Below are positions 4,466-24,252 of a DNA stretch of 45,357 nucleotides, piece by piece (positions within the stretch are counted from its first letter, which is position 1; each line of letters starts with the position of its first letter). The translations under genes and the position numbers were made by a program. Origin of the DNA: Gilliamella sp. Lep-s35 (lineage in GTDB: Bacteria > Pseudomonadota > Gammaproteobacteria > Enterobacterales > Orbaceae); the NCBI RefSeq assembly GCF_009795845.1, contig NZ_WTEX01000019.1, positions 1 through 45,357 on the forward strand, written 5' to 3'. The notes beneath the pieces are model-generated. The model was given only the letters and a program-made list of their open reading frames with translations, had not been told where the DNA came from and did no database searches.

Positions 4466-5365
4466 ATGTTGGATAATTCGCGTTTACGCATTGCAATGCA
4501 AAAGTCAGGTCGATTAAGTGACGAATCAAAAAAATTACTTGCTCAATGTGGTATTAAAATTAATCTTCAAGAACAGCGTTTGATCGCTTTTGCCGAAAAT
4601 ATGCCAATTGATATTTTGCGTGTTCGTGATGATGATATCCCCGGATTGGTTATTGATGGTGTTGTCGATATTGGGATTGTCGGCGAAAATGTTTTAGAGG
4701 AGGAAGTATTAGATAGGCAAGCCGAAGGCGAAAACCCACAATTTAAAAAATTGCGCAGTTTAGATTTTGGTGGCTGTCGGTTGTCGATCGCAGCACCTCG
4801 TGATTTTGAGTATACAGGACCAGAATGTTTAAATGATTTACGTATTGCTACCACTTACCCTCACCTGCTCCGCCGTTATCTTGCTCAATATAATGTTAAC
4901 TTTAAAACCTGTTTGCTGAATGGTTCGGTCGAGGTTGCCCCTCGGGCTGGGCTTGCCGATGTAATTTGTGATTTGGTTTCGAGTGGTGCAACACTTGAGG
5001 CCAATGGACTAAAAGAGATCGAAGTTATCTATAAATCAAAAGCCTGCTTAATTCAACGTCAAGGTGAAATGTCGCCAATAAAACAGGCGTTAATCGATAA
5101 AATTATGACACGCATTCAAGGCGTTATTCAGGCTCGTGAGTCCAAATATATTATGCTCCATGCCCCTACCGAGGTGTTAGATGATATTGTTGCGCTATTG
5201 CCGGGTGCCGAAAACCCAACCATTTTGCCACTCACTGGCGAGCAAAATCGTGTTGCGCTACATATGGTGAGTAGTGAATCGCTTTTTTGGGAAACCATGG
5301 AAAAATTAAAAACATTAGGCGCAAGTTCAATTCTTGTATTACCAATTGAAAAAATGATGGAGTAA
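4466..5365 (+). CDS. hisG: ATP phosphoribosyltransferase HisG
   Basis: First enzyme of histidine synthesis: ATP plus PRPP gives phosphoribosyl-ATP. Encodes 299 residues, the length of the long, hexameric enteric form with a C-terminal regulatory domain, so HisZ is not needed. [13 protein letters not shown] at the start, [16 protein letters not shown] (PRPP loop) and the terminal [14 protein letters not shown] match E. coli HisG almost residue for residue. ATG 4466 is chosen over a TTG at 4454 because GGAGA lies at 4456-4460. The histidine-binding C-terminal domain suggests feedback inhibition in addition to attenuation. Confidence 0.97.
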
Positions 5366-5369
5366 TAAG

Positions 5370-6671
5370 ATGAAACTTTCTTATTGGCAACAATGTACTG
5401 ACGTTCAACGAAAGAAACTACTGACTCGCCCAGCAATTAATGCTTCAGATTCGATTAGCAAGGCAGTAGCCGATATTTTGGCACAAGTAAAGCAGCACGG
5501 CGATGAGGCTCTAAAAGCATTAAGTAACAAATTTGATAAAGTCCAAATTGAGCAAATAAAGCTTACAAAAGAAGACATAAAAGCCGCCGCAAATCGTGTT
5601 AATCCTGAATTAAAACAAGCCATGCAATTAGCGGTTGCCAACATTGAAAAATTCCACCAAGCACAAGCCTATCAATCTATTACGGTTGAAACAATGGCAG
5701 GCGTAAAATGCCAGTTAGTTACTCGCCCTATTGATTCGGTTGGGCTTTATATTCCAGGCGGTTCAGCCCCTTTATTATCTACTGTGTTAATGCTTGCAAC
5801 ACCAGCTAAAATTGCGGGTTGTCGTCAAGTTATTTTATGTTCGCCACCGCCCATTGCTGATGAGATTTTATATGCCGCACAGTTGTGTGGTGTTAGCGAG
5901 GTTTATCAATTAGGCGGTGCGCAAGCCATTGGTGCAATGGCACTAGGTACCGAGTCGGTTCCTAAAGTCGATAAGATTTTTGGTCCTGGAAATGCCTACG
6001 TTACCGAGGCTAAACGACAAGTCAGTCAGCGACTTGATGGCGCAGCCATTGATATGCCAGCTGGTCCGTCTGAAGTGTTAGTGATTGCAGATAGTTCAGC
6101 AAATCCTGCTTTTATTGCTGCCGATCTTTTGTCGCAAGCTGAACATGGTCCTGATTCACAAGTTATTTTGTTAACACCTGATGAAAAAATAGCACAAGCA
6201 GTATCGATTGAAGTCGATAAGCAACTTACGCAACTATCGCGCCAAAATATCGCTAAAAAAGCATTACAAGAAAGTCGCCTCATTGTAACTAAAGATTTGG
6301 ATGAATGTGTTGCTATTAGCAATCGCTATGGTCCCGAACACTTAATTATTCAAACTACGAATGCGGATGAATTAGTTGAACAAATTACTAGTGCTGGCTC
6401 GATCTTCTTGGGTGATTGGTCACCGGAGTCAGCAGGTGATTATGCTTCAGGAACCAATCATGTATTACCAACTTATGGTTATACAGCCACATATTCTAGC
6501 CTTGGGCTTGCTGATTTTCAAAAACGTATGACAGTGCAAAAATTAACACCAGAAGGTTTAAAAGCCATTGGTCATGCGGTTGAGTTGATGGCAGAAGCAG
6601 AACAACTCACTGCCCACAAACAGGCGGTTAGCCTTAGGCTTGCGGTATTAAATTCAATAAATCAAAAATAG
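5370..6671 (+). CDS. hisD: histidinol dehydrogenase HisD
   Basis: NAD-dependent, zinc-containing enzyme for the last two oxidations, L-histidinol to L-histidine. Encodes 433 residues, normal length. Diagnostic stretches include [33 protein letters not shown] and [12 protein letters not shown], the last carrying Gln/His zinc and substrate ligands, and [10 protein letters not shown] near the catalytic Glu-His pair. The start follows the hisG stop by four bases, consistent with coupled translation. Confidence 0.97.
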
Positions 6672-12864: not shown

Positions 12865-13146
12865 ATGGTCAAAAAATTTAGTATCGAATTCAAACAACAA
12901 TCAGTGGATTATGCGTTATCTAATGCACACCTTTCTATCAGCGAACTTGCCAACCATCTAGGTGTGGGTAAATCAACCCTAGATAAATGGATTAGGCAAC
13001 TTTCCCCGAATAAAACCAGCCGTCGAGAGTTAACCGCTGAGCAACAGCGGATTATGGCGTTAGAAAAAGAGATTAAAGAACTGAAAATGGCTAATGATAT
13101 ACTAAAAAAGGCGCATGTGTACTTCATCAACAATCCAAGTCGATGA
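12865..13146 (+). CDS. IS3-family OrfA (transposase N-terminal HTH protein)
   Basis: Encodes 93 residues. FSIEFKQQSVDYALSN followed by SISELANHLGVGKSTLDKWI is the HTH_Tnp_1 helix-turn-helix that binds IS ends. A leucine-rich coiled segment (LEKEIKELKMANDILKKA) follows. An AAAAAAG slippery heptamer at 13104-13110 is where the family makes the OrfAB fusion by -1 frameshifting. OrfA itself looks intact, but its partner is broken. Confidence 0.85.
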   Translation: MVKKFSIEFKQQSVDYALSNAHLSISELANHLGVGKSTLDKWIRQLSPNKTSRRELTAEQQRIMALEKEIKELKMANDILKKAHVYFINNPSR

Positions 13147-14031
13147 AGTACGCTTATATGAAAAATCATTTAACCTGCTATCCCGTTACTAGGATATGCT
13201 CATTACTTGGTGTCAGTTCATCGGGTTATTATGCTTGGTTAAAAAAAGCAAACAAATCAGCTAAACTCAGCGAGTATATCCAAAAGCAGTATTGGCAACA
13301 TAAAGCTCGTTTGGGTGCGCCAAGCCTGCTTCATGATGCAAGGGAAGCGGGCTATCAAGTTTCAGAAAGGACAATTAGCCGTGTTTTGTAACAATGGGGA
13401 TTACCTAGTTTAAGATTGCATAGTAAAGCAGCACGTAAATTCAAGTATAAAACAGACACGGCTCATCGCAATATTGTGCCCAACACGTTAGATAGGCAAT
13501 TTAACCCTGATAAGCCTAATAAAACATGGGTAACCGATATTACTTATATTAAAACGGGTGAAGGTTGGTTATATTTGTCGGTGATTATCGATTTATATGG
13601 ACGAAAAGTGATTGCTAGGCAAACGAGTCTCTACATAGACCGCCATTTAGTGTGTAATACATTAAAACAAGCTTTATTTCGGCGTCACATTTCCTAAAAA
13701 TGTACTCATTCATAGTGACCAAGGAAGCCAATATTGCAGTGCTGATTTCAAGCAATTATTGTTACAATATGGGCTAAGGCAAAGCATGAGTCGAAGAGGC
13801 AACTGCTTTGATAATGCGGTTGTTGAGAGTTTTTTTCATACACTCAAAACACATATTATTCATGACTGTTACTACAAAACGAGGAAGCAGGCTAATAAAG
13901 CACTATTTGAATATATTGAAATCTATTATAATCGGATACGCCGTCATTCAGCCAATGGCTAGGTATCACCGCAGCAATATGAACAACAATATTACCAAAA
14001 CGAAAAAATGATAGAGGTGGGCACTGTCTAA
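13143..14031 (+). pseudogene. IS3-family OrfB transposase, inactivated
   Basis: The rve/DDE integrase part of the IS. Reading starts MKYAYMKNHLTCYPVTRIC with SSSGYYAWLKKA. All three catalytic regions remain: WVTDITYI (first Asp), VLIHSDQGSQY (second Asp) and NAVVESFFHTLKT (Glu). The frame has three lesions: TAA at 13389-13391, a one-base insertion in a T-run near 13677-13680 (frame changes from FRRHIS to GVTFPKNV), and TAG at 13960-13962 just before VSPQQYEQQ. The three lesions point to an old insertion that cannot move by itself. Confidence 0.85.
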
Positions 14032-14301: not shown

Positions 14302-15950
14302 TTTCTAAACTGCCTACACGGCAGTGAACAATAGCGTAGAATTAAATGAGCTATTTGTTGCTTTCTAAACTGCCTACACGGCAGTGAACATTATTTTGTA
14401 CTGCTTTTTTATAATCAGACTTTTCTAAACTGCCTACACGGCAGTGAACGCAACGTGTTGCTGGTGGGCACGTTGTTGATATTTCTAAACTGCCTACACG
14501 GCAGTGAACAGTAATATTAAAAAAATAAATAAAAATGGTTTTTTCTAAACTGCCTACACGGCAGTGAACATGATTTAGAAAATCTCTTTTTTCATCCTGT
14601 GTTTCTAAACTGCCTACACGGCAGTGAACTATACACAGCGTAACACTCGCCGACGTGCCGCTTTCTAAACTGCCTACACGGCAGTGAACCAAATGGTGGC
14701 AAAGCAGATTAAAGCGGAAATTTTCTAAACTGCCTACACGGCAGTGAACTAGCACCCAATTTATAACGCCTACCCTTATATTTTCTAAACTGCCTACACG
14801 GCAGTGAACCGTATTATGTTTTTAATGCTCAAGATGTCGAGTTTCTAAACTGCCTACACGGCAGTGAACCGGTCCAATTAATGTTGTCTGGGTCTTTTAT
14901 TTTTCTAAACTGCCTACACGGCAGTGAACGTTGGACAATAGTTGACGTATTCGGCGGTTCATTTCTAAACTGCCTACACGGCAGTGAACATCAAGAAGCA
15001 ATAGCAATTCTAATGCCAGTAATTTCTAAACTGCCTACACGGCAGTGAACGATCCTATTGGTCTTGATTATTGGACCGGCGATTTCTAAACTGCCTACAC
15101 GGCAGTGAACATCTTCTTCCAAATAATTTTAGTGCGAAATCATTTCTAAACTGCCTACACGGCAGTGAACTTTCGATATATCCGTTAATGTTGCCCACAT
15201 GCTTTCTAAACTGCCTACACGGCAGTGAACAATAAAGCAATTGAGAAAGCTATTTTAATTACTTTCTAAACTGCCTACACGGCAGTGAACGACGTTATTC
15301 TCATCAATTACCCCTCTTTCTTTTTCTAAACTGCCTACACGGCAGTGAACGTCCCGCTGCAAGTTCAATTGATTTGAAATATTTTCTAAACTGCCTACAC
15401 GGCAGTGAACGGAGCGAATACGGCAAAAATCAAGCATGAAATTTTCTAAACTGCCTACACGGCAGTGAACACAATTAATTTACATAAAAAAGCCACTAAT
15501 TATTTCTAAACTGCCTACACGGCAGTGAACGTTTGCTCCACCGCTCAACTGCTTTGTTTGTCTTTCTAAACTGCCTACACGGCAGTGAACTTTAAGTGGG
15601 AGCGTGCTCCCACCCCCTTATATTTCTAAACTGCCTACACGGCAGTGAACAAAGAAAAGCTCGTTTCTGGTGAGTTAATCATTTTCTAAACTGCCTACAC
15701 GGCAGTGAACGAGGCTCGTTATTTGGCTGTGTTAGTGATGCATTTCTAAACTGCCTACACGGCAGTGAACTCAACTGTATCACTGATAAAAAACATGTAC
15801 TATTTCTAAACTGCCTACACGGCAGTGAACGTCGAGCATGTGATTGAGACCTTGAGGACAGTTTTCTAAACTGCCTACACGGCAGTGAACAGAGCCAATA
15901 CCAACCGTTAATATGTTAGCTGTTTCTAAACTGCCTACACGGCAGTGAAC
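14302..15950 (-). CRISPR. type I-F CRISPR array, 28 repeats and 27 spacers
   Basis: The 28-nt repeat, on this strand beginning TTTCTAAACTGCC and ending GGCAGTGAAC, starts at 14302 and recurs every 60 bases to 15923-15950. Spacers are 32 nt except the one at 14990-15022, which is 33. The complement begins GTTCACTGCC and ends with AGAAA, with the internal palindrome CTGCC/GGCAG. This is the I-F (Ypest) repeat, transcribed on the minus strand, so the leader and newest spacers are at the high-coordinate end. By eye all 28 repeats are identical, including the trailing one. No cas gene lies in the window; Cas1, Cas2-3, Csy1-3 and Cas6f would have to be encoded elsewhere. Confidence 0.97.
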
Positions 15951-16310: not shown

Positions 16311-17876
16311 ATGACATCTAATAACGCTAAATCAATTACCGAAACGCAACAACGCGATCAACTACAACGCCAAATATGGAAAATTGCCGACGAAGTCCGT
16401 GGTGCGGTCGATGGTTGGGATTTTAAACAGTATGTACTTGGTTCTTTGTTTTATCGCTTTATTAGTGAGAATTTTGCCAATTATATTCAAGCTGGCGATG
16501 AGAGTATCGACTACAGCGCATTACCGGATGATGTTATTACCGATGAAATTAAAAAAGACGCAATAAAAACCAAAGGCTATTTTATTTATCCTAGCCAACT
16601 ATTTTGTAAAATTGTAGCGGAAGCTAATACCAATCCAAGTTTAAATACTGACTTGGCTAATATTTTTAATGCGATTGAAAGCTCAGCTATTGGCTATCCT
16701 TCAGAAAGTGATATTAAAGGATTATTTGCCGATTTTGATACCACTAGTAACCGATTAGGTAATACGGTTGCCGATAAAAACAAACGGTTAGCTGCAGTAC
16801 TTAATGGGGTGGCCGAGCTTGATTTTGGCGATTTTGCAGACCATAAAATCGATCTGTTTGGCGATGCTTATGAGTATTTGATTTCTAATTATGCCTCGAA
16901 CGCCGGTAAATCGGGAGGCGAGTTTTTTACCCCGCCGAATGTGTCCAGGCTGATCTCACAACTCGCCTTACATAATCAAAAAAAGGTCAATAAAATCTAT
17001 GATCCGGCAGCAGGATCGGGCTCTTTATTGTTACAGGCGAAAAAACAATTTGACGAACATATTATTGAGGATGGATTCTTCGGTCAAGAGATTAATCATA
17101 CCACCTATAACCTTGCTCGAATGAATATGTTTTTACACAATATCAACTATGATAAATTTGAAATTGCCTTAGGGGACACGCTACTTAATCCAAAATTTGG
17201 CGACGAAAAGCCATTTGATGCCATTGTTTCTAATCCACCTTATTCAATTAAATGGATTGGCAGTGATGATCCAACCTTAATCAATGATGACCGATACGCA
17301 CCTGCCGGTGTGCTGGCACCCAAATCGAAAGCTGATTTTGCCTTTATTATGCATGCATTAAGTTACCTGTCCGATCGCGGTCGTGCGGCAATTGTTACCT
17401 TTCCGGGGATCTTTTATCGTGGCGGTGCAGAACAAAAAATTCGCAAATATTTGGTCGACAATCATTATGTTGAAACCGTAATATCGCTCGCACCCAACTT
17501 ATTTTATGGCACCTCGATTGCGGTTAATATTCTGGTGCTTGCTAAAAATAAAACCGTCAAAACGACACAATTTATTGATGCCAGCAAACTGTTTAAAAAA
17601 GAGACCAATAATAGTGTGCTCACTGATGAACATATTCAACAAATTATGCAAGTATTTGCTAGCAAGCAAGATATCGAATATTTTGCCAAATCGGTTGATA
17701 ATCAAACCATTGCCGACAATGATTATAATTTAGCGGTCAGTTCGTATGTCGAAGCCGAAGATACCCGTGAAGTGATTGATATCAAACAGCTTAATGCTAA
17801 CATTGCCGAAACGGTAAAAAAAATAAACACACTTCGTGCTGATATAGATGAAATAATTAAAGAGATTGAAGCATGA
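16311..17876 (+). CDS. hsdM: type I restriction-modification DNA methyltransferase subunit HsdM
   Basis: Encodes 521 residues; methylates adenine at the site chosen by HsdS and is part of the M2S methylase and R2M2S endonuclease. ATG 16311 is chosen because AGGAA lies at 16295-16299; a TTG at 16302 is too close to it. The N-terminal helical HsdM domain ([20 protein letters not shown]) is followed by the methylase: SAM motif [11 protein letters not shown] at Asp231 and catalytic NPPY at Asn308. [14 protein letters not shown] is the typical pre-motif region. The operon order and the HsdS type indicate subfamily IC (EcoR124/EcoprrI). The stop overlaps the next ATG (ATGA). Confidence 0.95.
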
Positions 17877-18049
17877 GTAATGATCATATCCTTATTTACC
17901 AGGATAATAACCAATCAATTCGCGTTGAGGCTCGCTTTAAAGGTGCAACTGTTCGGAAAATCCGAACAGTTCAACCACAGAGCTCATGCAATGTTTCCAG
18001 TGGGGGTAGAAATATCTTATCTGAAAACCATCAATGTATTAGCAAATAA
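17873..18049 (+). pseudogene. rhuM-like remnant between hsdM and hsdS
   Basis: A 58-codon frame starting in an ATGA overlap with hsdM. Its first 30 residues (ILIYQDNNQSIRVEARFKGATV) resemble the N-terminus of RhuM/virulence-RhuM proteins, often found inside type I loci; there the next residues would be the WLTQ helix. Here the sequence instead meets a hairpin and becomes unrelated. Another frame over 17970-18074 reads HRAHAMFPVGVEISYLKTINV, unassigned, so the insert is probably a deletion product of one or two genes. Identification is by recall, hence moderate confidence. Confidence 0.45.
17947..17971. repeat. 11-bp perfect hairpin within the rhuM-like remnant
   Basis: AACTGTTCGGA (17947-17957) and TCCGAACAGTT (17961-17971) are perfect complements around AAA. 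No T-run follows on the + strand, so it is not a standard terminator. It lies where the RhuM similarity ends, so it may mark a deletion or small insertion junction. Confidence 0.6.
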
Positions 18050-18073
18050 AGCGAAACAGGAAAGCCGCAAAAA

Positions 18074-19234
18074 ATGAATGATAGACTAAATATGCAAAAT
18101 AGTATCGCGAAATTACTTGATGGGGTAGTGGTTGAGTGGAAACCATTAGGTAAATTACTTATACGCACAAAAGGAACAAAAATTACAGCAAGTCAAATGA
18201 AGGAACTACATAAAGATGATGCACCATTAAAGATTTTTGCTGGTGGTAAAACATTTGCTTTAGTCAATTTTGACGATATATCCGAAAAAGATATCAATCG
18301 AGAACCGTCTATTATTGTAAAATCTCGCGGTATCATTGAATTTGAATACTACGATAAACCATTCTCTCATAAAAATGAAATGTGGTCATATCACTCCAAA
18401 GATAAACAGATTAATATCAAATATGTTTACTATTTTTTAAAAACTAAAGAACTACATTTTCAAAATATTGGCAGCAAAATGCAAATGCCACAGATTGCGA
18501 CACCAGATACGGATAAATTTGAAATCCCCATTCCCTCTCTACACGTTCAAACCGAAATAGTCCGTATTTTAGACACATTTACAGCCCTAACAGCAGAGCT
18601 AACAGCAGAGCTTACCGCACGGAGAAAACAATACAACTATTATCGTGATCAATTGTTGTCCTTTCAAGAGGATGAGGTTGAGTGGAAGGCTTTAGGGGAA
18701 ATTCTTCATCGAACCAAAGGCGCAAAAATCACTGCATCTAAAATGAAAGAAATTCATAAAAATAATGCACCATTAAAGATTTTTGCTGGTGGAAAAACAT
18801 TTGCTTTAGTCAATTTTGACGATATACCCGAAAAAGATATTAATCGAGAACCGTCTATTATTGTAAAATCTCGCGGTATCATTGAATTTGAATATTACGA
18901 TAAACCATTTTCCCATAAAAATGAAATGTGGTCATACCATTCTAAAGATGGGAATATTAATATCAAATATGTTTACTATTTTTTAAAAACTAAAGAACTA
19001 CATTTTCAAAATATTGGTAGTAAAATGCAAATGCCACAGATTGCGACACCAGATACGGATAAATTTGTTATACCAATTCCATCGCTCAGTATTCAAAACA
19101 GAATTGTCGAAATCCTAGATAAATTTGATGCGCTTACTAACTCAATCACCGAGGGTTTACCGCGTGAGATTGCCTTACGCCAAAAACAATATGAATATTA
19201 TCGGAATTTGTTATTAGACTTTCCGAAAGAGTAA
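18074..19234 (+). CDS. hsdS: type I restriction specificity subunit HsdS with duplicated target-recognition domain
   Basis: Encodes 386 residues. Layout: TRD1 (about 20-155), central conserved region (about 156-195, IVRILDTFTALTAELTAEL then RRKQYNYYRDQLLSF), TRD2 (about 202-337), distal conserved region (IVEILDKFDALTNSI and RQKQYEYYRNLLLDF). Residues 50-149 and 232-331 are nearly identical, differing at three positions by my reading (Ser/Pro, Lys/Gly, Gln/Asn). Normal HsdS proteins have two different TRDs, each reading one half of an asymmetric split site; two equal TRDs should read a palindromic split site. The TAELTAEL segment is the EcoR124-type spacer that sets the gap length. It lies between the rhuM remnant and prrC. 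Confidence 0.95.
   Translation: MNDRLNMQNSIAKLLDGVVVEWKPLGKLLIRTKGTKITASQMKELHKDDAPLKIFAGGKTFALVNFDDISEKDINREPSIIVKSRGIIEFEYYDKPFSHKNEMWSYHSKDKQINIKYVYYFLKTKELHFQNIGSKMQMPQIATPDTDKFEIPIPSLHVQTEIVRILDTFTALTAELTAELTARRKQYNYYRDQLLSFQEDEVEWKALGEILHRTKGAKITASKMKEIHKNNAPLKIFAGGKTFALVNFDDIPEKDINREPSIIVKSRGIIEFEYYDKPFSHKNEMWSYHSKDGNINIKYVYYFLKTKELHFQNIGSKMQMPQIATPDTDKFVIPIPSLSIQNRIVEILDKFDALTNSITEGLPREIALRQKQYEYYRNLLLDFPKE
18221..18520 (+). repeat. intragenic direct repeat in hsdS, copy 1 (TRD1)
   Basis: A 300-base segment repeated at 18767-19066, 546 bases (182 codons) downstream and in frame. I count about 16 differences, mostly silent third-position changes plus one clustered block (GATAAACAG against GATGGGAAT). 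Confidence 0.9.
18587..18610 (+). repeat. 12-bp tandem repeat encoding TAEL units
   Basis: CTAACAGCAGAG occurs twice in tandem (18587-18598, 18599-18610) and encodes LTAE-LTAE, followed by a diverged third unit (CTTACCGCACGG). In EcoR124I and EcoR124/3 two against three TAEL units change the recognition gap from six to seven bases. The present copy number corresponds to the two-unit form. Confidence 0.85.
18767..19066 (+). repeat. intragenic direct repeat in hsdS, copy 2 (TRD2)
   Basis: Second copy of the 300-base TRD segment, about 95% identical to 18221-18520 by hand count. Outside these limits the two halves of hsdS diverge quickly, as expected for independent conserved regions. Confidence 0.9.
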
Positions 19235-19260
19235 GAATCATAAGGTAGAGTTATAAAAAG

Positions 19261-20370
19261 ATGAATACTACATTAAGGAATATTGCTGAAAAGCTGGATA
19301 AAAACGATAGAAAAGTCCAATTAATCTATGCCTTTAACGGAACCGGTAAAACACGTTTATCTCAAACCTTTAAGAATTTAATTATATCGCAGCATAAAGG
19401 CAATCAAGAGGATCATGCAGCCTTAACAAGGCATAAAATCCTTTATTATAACGCCTTTACTGAGGATTTATTTGTTTGGGATAATGATAAACACCAAGAG
19501 GGTGAACATCAATTAATCATACAACCGAACTCATTTACGGACTGGATTTTGAAAGACCAAGGACAAGACCAAAATATTGTTCGTTACTTTCAATCCTATA
19601 CTCATCAAAGATTACTGCCGCATTTTAATGAGGATTTTTCCGCTATTACTTTTTCGCTGGCAGGCGATAATGAGCAGCGTATGGATAATATTAAAATCTC
19701 CAAAGGCGAAGAAAACAATTTAATTTGGAGTATTTTTTTCACGCTGATTAACTTAGTGATTGCCGAGCGCAATATTGCGGAAACAAGCGAGCGTTCCACT
19801 AATGAGTTTGACCAATTACGCTATATTTTTATTGATGATCCGGTCAGTTCGTTGGACGAAAATCACCTTATCCAATTGGCGGTAGATATTGCCCAATTGA
19901 TCCAATCTAGTGATTCTGACATTAAATTTATTATTACGACCCATAACCCACTGTTTTATAATGTACTTTATAATGAACTCAAATTGTCAAACGGTTATAT
20001 TTTAAGACGATTTGAGGGCGGTGAATTTGCATTAGAAGAGAAAAAAGGCGATTCAAACCGCAGTTTTTCCTATCATCTGTATGTAAAACAGTTGCTGCAA
20101 GAAGCGGTTAAGGAAAATAAAATTGAAAAATATCATTTTACCCTATTACGCAACTTATATGAAAAAACCGCCGGTTTTTTAGGCTATCCGCAATGGTCAG
20201 ACTTGTTGCCTGACGATAAAAAACTTTACTTAACACGGATTATCAATTTCACCAGCCATTCAACCTTATCTAATGAAATGGTTTCCGAACCTTCTGAACC
20301 TGAAAAGCAAACGGTTGCCTTTTTACTGAACCATTTACTTGAAAAGTATAATTTTAAACATTTGGAATAG
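19261..20370 (+). CDS. prrC: PrrC-type anticodon nuclease
   Basis: Encodes 369 residues (E. coli PrrC is 396). The N-terminal part is an ABC-like NTPase: Walker A AFNGTGKTRLS (Lys30), signature-like ISKGEENNLIW (146-156), Walker B YIFIDDPVSSLDE (Asp192-Asp193), switch TTHNP (His228). The C-terminal part carries KKGDSNRSFSYHLYVK, then Arg297, Glu301 (LLRNLYEKT) and His333 (FTSHST). Spacing of 4 and 36 equals the Arg320-Glu324-His356 nuclease triad described for E. coli PrrC. PrrC cuts tRNA-Lys at the anticodon; it is kept silent by the type IC complex and released by the T4 Stp peptide. The gene order hsdM-hsdS-prrC-hsdR is that of the prr locus. hsdR starts three bases downstream. Confidence 0.92.
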   Translation: MNTTLRNIAEKLDKNDRKVQLIYAFNGTGKTRLSQTFKNLIISQHKGNQEDHAALTRHKILYYNAFTEDLFVWDNDKHQEGEHQLIIQPNSFTDWILKDQGQDQNIVRYFQSYTHQRLLPHFNEDFSAITFSLAGDNEQRMDNIKISKGEENNLIWSIFFTLINLVIAERNIAETSERSTNEFDQLRYIFIDDPVSSLDENHLIQLAVDIAQLIQSSDSDIKFIITTHNPLFYNVLYNELKLSNGYILRRFEGGEFALEEKKGDSNRSFSYHLYVKQLLQEAVKENKIEKYHFTLLRNLYEKTAGFLGYPQWSDLLPDDKKLYLTRIINFTSHSTLSNEMVSEPSEPEKQTVAFLLNHLLEKYNFKHLE

Positions 20371-20373
20371 ACT

Positions 20374-23300
20374 ATGACGACTTATACAACCCCCATCGCC
20401 GAAACCAATGGTTATATTATTTTAGATAACTACACCAAGCTTGAAGAGCCAGCGGCTGCTTACCAAACCGAAAATCAATTAGAAAACGAATTAATTCAGG
20501 ATTTATGCCGTCAAGGATATGAATATTTGCCCAACCTAACTACGCACGAAAAGTTGTTGGCCAATATTCGCGTGCAGTTACAAACACTGAACAACATGCA
20601 GTTTACTGATGCGGAATGGCAACGGTTTGTTTTGGAGTATTTGGATAAACCCAATGAGTCAATGGTCGATAAAAGTCGTAAAATCCACCACAATCATATT
20701 TATGATTTTGTGTTTGATGATGGTCATATTCAAAATATTTATCTACTTGATAAAAAAACACTTAAAAATAATAAATTACAAGTTATTCACCAATTTCAAC
20801 AAGCGGGTAGTTATGCCAATCGTTATGATGTGACTATTTTAGTGAACGGCTTGCCTTTAATACAAGTCGAATTAAAAAAACGGGGTATTGCCATTCGTGA
20901 AGCCTTTAATCAAGTCCATCGTTATAGTAAAGAAAGCTTTAATCAAGATAATTCGTTATTTAAATATTTGCAAATGTTTGTGATTTCAAACGGTACGGAT
21001 ACGCGCTATTTTGCTAACACGACTAAACGTGACAAAAATAGCTTTGACTTTACCATGAATTGGGCAAATGTAAAAAACAAACCGATTAAAGACTTAAAAG
21101 ATTTTACTGCAACGTTTTTTGCCAGTCGTACTTTGTTGAGTGTACTTATCACCTACTCGGTTTTGGATGTTAATGATACTTTATTAATTATGCGTCCTTA
21201 CCAAATCGCCGCAACCGAACGGATTTTGTGGCAAATTACTAGTGCATATCATGCCAAAAATTGGAGTACGCTTCAAAGTGGTGGCTTTATTTGGCACACA
21301 ACGGGATCGGGTAAAACACTGACCAGTTTTAAAGCCGCTCGTTTAGCCACTGAACTTGAATTTATAGACAAAGTCTTTTTTGTGGTGGATCGTAAAGATC
21401 TGGATTATCAAACCATGAAAGAGTATCAAAAATTCTCAAAAGATAGTGTCAATGGTTCAAACAGCACCGCTGGGCTTAAGCGTAACATTGAAAAAACCGA
21501 TAATAAAATTATTGTTACCACTATTCAAAAACTCAATAATTTGATTAAAAGCGAAGATGACTTAGCAATCTATGATAAACAGGTCGTGTTTATTTTTGAC
21601 GAAGCGCACCGCTCCCAGTTTGGCGAAGCCCAAAAAAACATAAAGCGTAAATTTAAAAAATATTACCAATTTGGTTTCACCGGCACGCCGATTATGCTTG
21701 ATAACGCACAAGGAACACCAACCACGGCTGATGTTTTTGGTCGTGAATTGCATGCTTATGTATTAACCGATGCCATTCGTGACGAAAAGGTACTAAAATT
21801 TAAAGTCGACTATAATGATGTGCGCCCGAATTTTAAATCAATAGAGCAAGAACAAAATCTTGAAAAACTCAGCGCTGCTGAAAATAAAAAAGCCCTGCTC
21901 CACCCAAACCGTATAGAGCAAATTACACAATATATTTTGAATAATTTTAAACAAAAAACCCATCGCTTAAACGGTACAAGTAAAGGATTTAATGCCATGT
22001 TTGCGGTGAGTAGTGTGGACGCAGCTAAACTCTATTATGAATCATTCAAAAAATTACAAAAAGGAACCAATCAACCGTTAAAAATAGCCACCATATTTTC
22101 TTTTGCCGCCAATGAAGAACAAGATCCACAAGGTAACCTTGTTGATGAGAGCTTCGAGACTGATGCTTTGAATCAAAGTGCCAAAGAGTTTTTAGCGATG
22201 GCTATTGATGACTATAATCAGGAATTTAAATCAAACTATGATGTCAGCAGTGAGCAGTTTCAGAACTATTATCGCGATTTATCTTTAAAAGTAAAAAATA
22301 AAGAAATTGATTTGTTAATTGTGGTGGGTATGTTTTTAACCGGCTTTGATGCGCCAACGCTTAATACTTTATTTGTTGATAAAAACCTGCGATATCATGG
22401 GTTAATTCAAGCCTTTTCACGCACCAATCGCATTTATAATGCCACCAAAACCTTTGGTAATATTGTGGCGTTTCGCGATTTAGAACAAGCTACCATTGAT
22501 GCAATAAAAACATTTGGTAAAAGTAATACTCGTGAAGTGGTGCTAGAAAAAAGCTTTAAGGAATACATGGAAGGGTTTACTGATCAAAGCTCAGGTCAGT
22601 TCCATCAGGGCTATCTAGCCATCGTTGCCGAGTTACAAGAAAAATTCCCACGTCCCGACGAAATTATCACCGACAAAGATAAAAAAGCGTTTGTTAAATT
22701 ATTTGGCGAGTACTTGCGTGCTGACAACATATTGCAAAATTATGATGAATTTGTGGCATTAAAAGATTTCCAACAATTAGATATGACCGATGCGCAAGCG
22801 GTTTTAGCGTTTAAAAACAAGCATTATGTGACTGATGAAGATCTGCAAAAAATGCAAGCAGTTAAACTACCGACTGATCGCGCAATACAAAATTATCGTT
22901 CAACTTATAATGATATTCGTGATTGGCTACGCCGAGAAAAACAAGCCAATCAACAAGATCAGCAAAGATTTGACTGGGATGATGTGGTTTTTGAAATCGA
23001 TCTATTAAAATCGCAAGAGATTAATTTGGATTATATTCTTGAGCTCATTTATGAACAAAACAAACAAGAAAAAGCCAAACAAGACATTGTCGAAGATGCT
23101 CAGCGCTTAATTCGATCAAGCTTAGAAAATCGTGCTAAAGAAGAGCTAGTTGTTGATTTTATAAAACACACCGATCTTGACGCTATTCCGGATAAAGCCT
23201 CGATTATTGATGCGTTTTTCTTATATGCACAGCAAGAGTTACAGGTAGAACTAAATACCTTAATTGAAGAAGAAAATTTAAACGAAGCCGCTACAAAACG

Positions 23301-23475
23301 CTATATCTCCTCATCGTTAAAGCGAGAGTATGCAACTGAAAATGGCACAGAACTGAATGAGATTTTACCTAAAATGAGCCCACTTAATCCTCAATATTTA
23401 ATTAAAAAGAGCCGAGTTTTTGAAAAAATCGCCGCATTGGTTGAAAAGTTTAAAGGGGTTGGGGGGGAAATTTAA
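20374..23475 (+). CDS. hsdR: type I restriction endonuclease/translocase subunit HsdR
   Basis: Encodes 1033 residues, the size of type IC HsdR. PD-(D/E)xK nuclease near the N-terminus: Asp152 (RYDVTILV) and Glu166-x-Lys168 (IQVELKKRG). SF2 translocase: Walker [13 protein letters not shown] (Lys314), DEAHRSQFG (409-417), FGFTGTPI, and helicase domain 2 with [16 protein letters not shown] and [13 protein letters not shown]. The C-terminal helical domain binds HsdM/HsdS. It translocates DNA from unmethylated sites and cuts at a distance. Last gene of the operon. Confidence 0.95.
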
Positions 23476-23495
23476 CTTTTTAGCAATTATAATAA

Positions 23496-23526
23496 TAGGA
23501 GCTTGATATTTGGCTCCTCTTATTAA
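23496..23526. terminator. possible bidirectional terminator between hsdR and gntR-type gene
   Basis: AGGAGC and GCTCCT, flanked by TAAT and ATTA-rich arms, form a short hairpin between the two convergent genes. T-rich stretches occur on both sides but are not strong. Confidence 0.35.
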
Positions 23527-23547
23527 TTGATAATTTAATAGATAAAA

Positions 23548-24252
23548 TCACTTTGAATGATTTTGTATACAAAATCTTGCATTTTCATAATGGTAAATAA
23601 TGGTTGAAAAGTCAAAGGGTTCGCCAGCTGTGGTATAAAATACCTCTTCCACACAAAGAGCTGGTTCACCTGCTTGTAAGCCAAGATATTGAGCTGTTTC
23701 GGCATCAAGTTTGATTACTTGAAAATATTTATCAGAAAAACCAATATTAATATTATAATTATCTTGAATGTAACTAAAAATTGAGTTTTCAACAATTTCT
23801 TTATTCAAGTAATTGATTAATTTTTTGCGATAATAAGATTGCTCTAGGCCATATAATTTACCATCAACATAGCGCAGGCGTTTAATAAAATAAACATCCT
23901 CATCGTCATCACACTGTAAATTATCTTTTACCTTTGAGTTTGGTTTAATAAGATCGACATTAAAAACTTTGGATACACCATAAGTATCGTCTAAATCAAC
24001 TGTAAATCCATGACTTTGTAAAAAATTGAGATAGCCTCTTTTTTTACGTTGGCGTACAAAAATACCACTACCTTGCACTTGGTAAATCACCCCTTGCCGT
24101 TCAAGGCAATTGAGCGCTTTGATAATTGTGCTACGACTGACCTGATATTGGTTAATTAAGCCTTCAATATTAGCAAGTTGCGCCCCTTTTGGTAATTGCT
24201 GCTGATAAATCAGCTGTTTAATCTTCCCTGCAACATATTGATATTTAACCAT
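23548..24252 (-). CDS. GntR/HutC-family regulator (UTRA domain), likely of the beta-glucoside operon
   Basis: Encodes 234 residues. The N-terminal winged helix-turn-helix (GLINQYQVSRSTIIKALNCL, then QGVIYQVQGSGIFV) is typical GntR, and the C-terminal UTRA ligand domain ends VEEVFYTTAGEPFDFSTIIY. This size and pattern is common in regulators next to PTS sugar operons. It is divergent from the EIIBCA gene with 177 bases between, so it probably represses the PTS/glycosidase unit and responds to a phosphorylated beta-glucoside. Confidence 0.85.
   Translation of the reverse strand: MVKYQYVAGKIKQLIYQQQLPKGAQLANIEGLINQYQVSRSTIIKALNCLERQGVIYQVQGSGIFVRQRKKRGYLNFLQSHGFTVDLDDTYGVSKVFNVDLIKPNSKVKDNLQCDDDEDVYFIKRLRYVDGKLYGLEQSYYRKKLINYLNKEIVENSIFSYIQDNYNINIGFSDKYFQVIKLDAETAQYLGLQAGEPALCVEEVFYTTAGEPFDFSTIIYHYENARFCIQNHSK

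Follow-up and report, generated by a model that had tools for sequence, protein, structure and literature searches.

The window, a stretch of 45,357 nucleotides from the bee-gut bacterium Gilliamella sp. Lep-s35 (contig NZ_WTEX01000019.1), holds a locus that, judged by its gene order and domains, is a type IC restriction-modification operon (hsdM-hsdS-prrC-hsdR) with all frames open. Its specificity subunit, HsdS, has the same target-recognition domain (TRD) in both slots. We consider it probable that this is a complete type IC system, that it modifies GC(m6A)-N7-TGC, and that the symmetry arose by replacement of TRD1. Type I sites are usually asymmetric. A symmetric HsdS is uncommon, yet it recurs in nature.

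The operon and the duplicated TRD

The genes hsdM, hsdS and hsdR adjoin and encode canonical type I domains (Table 1). Family IC is indicated by the EcoR124-type C-terminal domain of HsdR, the homology of HsdS with EcoR124I, and the TAEL repeats of the central helix D1. A PrrC homologue is encoded between hsdS and hsdR.

Table 1. Coordinates of the operon and of the HsdS segments, in window positions (T1 and T2, the TRD copies of slots 1 and 2)
Feature	Positions	Strand	Detail
hsdM, N6-adenine methyltransferase subunit, 524 aa	16302..17876	+	Pfam N6_Mtase 1.5e-119, HsdM_N 3.1e-16
hsdS, 386-aa specificity subunit that carries one TRD twice	18074..19234	+	Pfam Methylase_S
TRD1 upstream edge, codons 30-49, slot-1 (Snodgrassella-like) ancestry	18161..18220	+	informative sites: T1 = Snodgrassella alvi (L034, slot-1 TRD) 14, T1 = T2 1
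TRD1 core, codons 50-149	18221..18520	+	97/100 aa = TRD2 core; 85/100 = gonococcal (NgoAV-like) TRD
Central connecting helix D1, 27 residues (ILD to YYR) including two TAEL repeats; determines the length of the spacer	18566..18646	+	
TRD2 core, codons 232-331	18767..19066	+	100/100 aa = G. intestini TRD2, 7 nt differences
Distal connecting helix D2, 31 residues	19112..19192	+	length equal in full-length relatives compared
prrC-like anticodon nuclease gene, 369 aa, inside operon	19261..20370	+	PADLOC PrrC 9.5e-142; Pfam AAA_13 1.2e-13
hsdR, type IC restriction/translocation subunit, 1033 aa	20374..23475	+	Pfam EcoR124_C 2.2e-65, HSDR_N, SWI2_SNF2

The sequence-only reading of this DNA described residues 50-149 and 232-331 of HsdS as almost the same, with about 16 mostly silent mismatches. 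The in-register comparison (offset 546 nt) agrees. The two cores differ at exactly 16 of 300 nucleotides and at 3 of 100 residues: 70 (S/P), 111 (K/G) and 112 (Q/N). About 11 of the differences are synonymous and 5 non-synonymous, with dS of 0.22 and dN of 0.02, a coarse estimate on only 57 synonymous sites. The differences being mostly silent, both copies are constrained.

The likeness ends on both sides of the core. Upstream, 25 of 93 nucleotides differ in codons 19-49. Past codon 149 identity falls, and the halves enter different central and distal conserved regions. A repeat search reported a 300-nt direct repeat (18117-18416 and 18663-18962, spacing 546) with only 85% identity, because its shifted frame takes in the divergent upstream edge. 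The half-vs-half score of this HsdS is 729, and the median of 140 full-length HsdS is 151.5. Therefore, the duplication of the TRD is far beyond chance. The protein is full length with D1 and D2 present, and not a truncated, homodimerising HsdS. Its structure model has the HsdS fold (pLDDT 84.9), with a weak part at residues 221-250 in TRD2 (pLDDT 51-60).

The genome is a draft of 103 contigs, and TRD alleles or copies might have been wrongly merged in the assembly. Nevertheless, such an artefact is an extremely unlikely source of the duplication. The cores carry 16 mismatches, their edges are distinct, and the longest exact run common to both copies is 62 nt. The flanks are colinear with those of Gilliamella intestini, and the genome is 99.99% complete with 0.03% contamination.

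Relatives of the locus and the origin of TRD1

HsdS matches are present in 29 of 198 genomes, the window's own counted, and the best of the others has 68% identity. The closest locus found is on a contig of G. intestini (L033), 90.9% identical over 18514-23599, with an hsdM product 97.1% identical in amino acids. The HsdS protein of this contig is also found, identical, in another genome of the same genus (G009). The alignment of HsdS with a related strain, which the sequence-only reading had proposed as a check, shows that G. intestini shares only TRD2. It carries the same locus, with a TRD2 identical in amino acids and a TRD1 unlike that of the window. Thus, the TRD1 region of the window (about 18141-18514) is foreign in a colinear locus. 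TRD1 was probably swapped in. By the route that we propose, the resident TRD1 (G. intestini has an unlike one) would have been replaced by a TRD of the family of the resident TRD2, through recombination within the flanking conserved regions.

The edge and the core of TRD1 have different affinities. More precisely, the edge goes with the slot-1 TRD of Snodgrassella alvi (Table 1). Over codons 19-49, T1 agrees with Snodgrassella at 19 informative sites and with T2 at 4. In the core, T1 agrees with T2 at 33 sites and with Snodgrassella at 7 (Fisher p 5e-7 when codons 19-49 are compared with the core). Since the edge follows Snodgrassella and the core follows TRD2, TRD1 either has a mosaic make-up or derives from a donor outside the sample. 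The T1 core is nearest to T2; among the 39 other gapless carriers of the TRD, the slot-2 TRD of G. intestini, which is the orthologue of T2, differs at 18 of 300 nucleotides and that of Snodgrassella at 42 of 300.

For this gene, the sequence-only reading had suggested that the two slots recently underwent gene conversion or recombination with each other, and the divergence does not support this. Between the window and G. intestini, dS is 0.22 for hsdM, 0.25 for prrC and 0.47 for hsdR. The dS between the two cores equals that of hsdM, and no exact run exceeds 62 nt. These two values give no support to a recent duplication of the TRD. The edge that matches the slot-1 lineage of Snodgrassella alvi also disfavours a recent conversion.

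An intragenic copy from slot 2 to slot 1 by gene conversion would also make the TRDs alike. In the core, none of the 39 other carriers without gaps is as close to T1 as T2 is, and the reversal of the site pattern upstream of the core is as expected at a conversion tract. Likewise, a search of the window's genome for a second hsdS that could have donated the TRD (Methylase_S, E <= 0.001) found none, and both Methylase_S matches of this genome fall inside the hsdS of Table 1. The same dS and run length stand on the other side, so any conversion is old, or the donor was the allele of another strain. We regard intragenic copying as somewhat unlikely. Either an old conversion or the allele of a relative is a possible origin of the likeness in the core.

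It could also be proposed that the locus has no activity and keeps its symmetric HsdS as a tolerated relic. Upstream there are broken ORFs that resemble transposases. In addition, the N-terminal half of the Staphylococcus xylosus HsdS, expressed in E. coli, is described as giving no modification at all (PMC10030836). However, hsdM, hsdS, prrC and hsdR are all open. The dN/dS values are about 0.1 or less for the TRD cores, hsdM and hsdR, and 0.16 for prrC (the genes compared with G. intestini). We find an inactive relic quite improbable.

The predicted recognition site

An active system whose two slots hold one and the same TRD would work as follows. The single HsdS chain would present this TRD twice, in opposite orientation around antiparallel helices, and the two copies would recognise identical half-sites, one on each strand. 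A palindromic bipartite site would be modified by the M2S methyltransferase, and the complex with HsdR would cleave away from that site. By comparison with characterised systems, our best prediction for this site is a palindromic m6A motif, GC(m6A)-N7-TGC, modified on both strands. The symmetry is expected because the TRDs of an S subunit are oppositely oriented around the antiparallel helix pair. The GCA half and the N7 spacer are proposed because the nearest characterised TRD is that of NgoAV (GCA, a half-site with a single adenine) and the spacer helix is EcoR124I-like, with two repeats.

The claim that two equal TRDs would read a symmetric site finds support in the same family, where half-HsdS proteins that dimerise do so, and in the palindromic site of the closest characterised TRD relative. 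Half-HsdS dimers are reported to read palindromes in EcoR124I-delta50 (GAAN7TTC), in the EcoDXXI truncation and in NgoAV (GCAN8TGC) (PMC3874165). A half-HsdS of Staphylococcus aureus is also reported with a palindrome, ACCN5GGT (PMC6158711). Using one TRD for both half-sites can also fail, as in the S. xylosus case above (PMC10030836). In the window, the 97 of 100 residues common to both cores are the basis for a supported, though predicted, palindrome; the P70S change in T1 is a caveat.

The gonococcal HsdS of Table 1 (L064) is truncated; it has 207 aa from its first ATG and ends at a G8 tract. The hsdS1 product of NgoAV is described as having 208 aa, a polyG at its 3' end, and the site GCAN8TGC (PMC9577141). 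Species, size and polyG tract fit the assignment of this sequence, which has no named record, to NgoAV. When the gonococcal hsdS1 is fused to hsdS2, the GCA half is retained, as GCAN7STCA (PMC9577141). NgoAV and the window share the TRD family, the type IC assignment and a symmetric specificity, which is predicted for the window. Unlike the window, NgoAV of Neisseria gonorrhoeae has a truncated, single-TRD HsdS that is phase-varying by its polyG tract. In contrast, the window carries both TRDs in one chain.

The length of D1 bears on the spacer. From ILD to YYR it has 31 residues in the gonococcal protein, one 4-residue repeat more than in the window. The D1 of the window is shorter, and therefore N7 is predicted instead of N8. 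In type IC systems the gap is determined by the number of repeats, and with the EcoR124I form it is 7 nt between the methylated adenines (PMC3874165). The window HsdS matches the EcoR124I chain 7bst (phmmer 4.1e-61) and its fold, with a D1 as long by an alignment count made by eye; the D2 helices are also equal in length. The labels of 7bst conflict, with EcoR124II protein as molecule name and EcoR124I in the title; its two TAEL repeats fit EcoR124I. The window HsdR carries EcoR124_C. On the other hand, EcoR124I itself has two unlike TRDs, and its symmetric forms (HsdS-delta50) are mutant half-subunits, unlike the window HsdS.

The site could also depart from a perfect palindrome, for example as GCA-N6-RTGC, through Ser70 or through the context of the slot. 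At position 70, proline is present in T2 and in each of the 39 gapless relatives, and T1 has serine. It breaks one family-invariant column: of the 30 columns that are invariant in the relatives, T2 matches 30 and T1 matches 29. This serine could weaken or alter TRD1. Few residue changes can shift the specificity of a TRD (PMC3983042), so 85% identity is no proof of GCA. The table of the 2013 review lists four-base second half-sites, RTNN, for EcoR124I, EcoDXXI and EcoprrI (PMC3874165), and by analogy T2 might demand an extra purine. However, NgoAV reads GCAN8TGC with a related TRD acting on both sides, and residues 111 and 112, where T1 and T2 also differ, belong to freely variable columns of the TRD family. 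An imperfect palindrome seems unlikely to us, and GC(m6A)-N7-TGC is still the preferred site. The window holds 10 copies of GCAN7TGC where 13.9 are expected (sd 3.8), a count that is uninformative on avoidance.

Motifs with a GCA half from Zymomonas (PMC8088579) were considered as an independent anchor and rejected, with no Zymomonas among the 63 plasmid records that carry the TRD. Phage records gave no match to this TRD.

Recurrence of symmetric HsdS and features of the locus

By analogy, the window HsdS should act in the way of NgoAV and of the truncated forms of EcoR124I and EcoDXXI, and it is built differently, as two copies in one chain. It would be the natural equivalent of symmetric enzymes that were truncated or engineered, inside an operon with an anticodon-nuclease homologue. 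A search of open-licence PMC text found neither a description of a full-length type I HsdS from nature whose two TRDs are identical nor recognition data for one. NgoAV is the sole natural palindromic type I system in the list of a 2013 review (PMC3874165). The nearest cases concern TRD position. The Helicobacter pylori allele HPV225_1544 is described as having the same TRD sequence in TRD1 and TRD2 (PMC3077401); it is type IIG, and the window system is type I. Identical TRDs at either position are reported in Moraxella catarrhalis (PMC6241649). Movement of TRDs between slots, or domain movement, is reported for both species (PMC3077401, PMC6241649).

We compared the halves of HsdS proteins from 215 loci. 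Most of them come from searches with the window HsdS, and the sample is biased to its type IC relatives and its TRD. A part comes from a TRD-blind search with the C-terminal 53 residues of HsdS, which matched 10 of 369 and 15 of 398 genomes. From 186 distinct HsdS-like ORFs, 46 were dropped (length not within 340-520 aa, or too little sequence to divide into halves), leaving 140. Near-duplicate halves (half-vs-half score above 400) are present in 5 of these 140, the window included, in a non-random sample. The half-vs-half identities are 85% over 213 residues (L210), 83% over 170 (window), 78% over 194 (L111), 72% over 166 (L085) and 55% over 185 (L198). The TRDs of L210 (reading frame 4965-6311), L111, L085 and L198 are different from those of the window, and L210 and L198 are on viral contigs. 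These four add to the candidates for a palindromic type I site, although L198, with its 55%, could well combine two specificities that differ.

The TRD family itself is widespread, with 49 carriers at 60% identity or more among the sampled HsdS ORFs. It is in slot 1 in 30 (window included), in slot 2 in 11, and in ORFs shorter than 340 aa in 8; the slots were assigned from ORF length and position, and some short ORFs may be products of contig ends or frameshifts. The family is found in either slot of full-length HsdS, so this TRD can work in both positions. Among the 49, only the window has it twice. Thus, the view of a natural full-length duplicate as unusual is sound, but it does not extend to uniqueness: 4 of 87 sampled full-length HsdS without the window's TRD (no match above 35% over at least 80 residues) also have near-duplicate halves. 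As the sample is non-random, it shows recurrence and not a rate.

In methylomes later than the 2013 review, natural palindromic type I-like motifs are reported in Lacticaseibacillus paracasei PC646 (GCANNNNNNNTGC, PMC10164179), Bifidobacterium longum (GCAN8TGC, PMC4618763) and Sphaerotilus (CGCAN7TGCG, PMC6856280). Considered here as motifs alone, they are neutral with regard to the TRD assignment. Likewise, a palindromic motif of H. pylori F32, RGAN7TCY, is given without an assigned enzyme (PMC3983042). We suggest, tentatively and with rather more doubt than for the window system itself, that a full-length HsdS with the same TRD twice is a recurrent and selectively maintained type IC state. 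It would arise when TRDs are exchanged among slots and across species, and could be a source of unassigned palindromic m6A motifs. A symmetric HsdS that occurs naturally as one chain points to the exchange of TRD slots as a way to the same result without truncation. It also offers a motif that can be checked, GCA-N7-TGC, and a route to assigning orphan palindromic bipartite motifs.

The EcoprrI/PrrC locus of E. coli resembles that of the window in having a PrrC homologue inside a type I operon (PMC3874165). Its asymmetric site, CCAN7RTGC, is unlike the one predicted here. A symmetric type I enzyme with an anticodon nuclease would be an unusual combination. R297, E301 and H333 of the PrrC-like protein may correspond to the active-site triad of E. 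coli PrrC, which has this spacing. Two Enterococcus plasmids (L116 and L217) have similarly arranged type I operons carrying the window-type TRD. One of them has an AAA-ATPase gene at the prrC position, in the gap between hsdS and hsdR, and the other lacks it. Thus, the nuclease gene embedded in the operon may come and go.

Other features lie near the operon. A CRISPR array upstream of hsdM (14302-15950) has 28 identical 28-nt repeats with a period of about 60 bp, and the repeat is presumably I-F-like. The window's genome has 0 matches to Cas1 (PF01867) and a Cas_Csy4 match on another contig (C79). This is either an effector without its adaptation gene or a gap of the draft. Upstream of the array, transposase-like ORFs are in pieces at 12865-13697; by appearance we take them to be IS3-like. 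The gap of about 200 bp between hsdM and hsdS (17874-18073) contains a short reading frame whose start lies at the stop codon of hsdM, and it looks like the remnant of a decayed gene.
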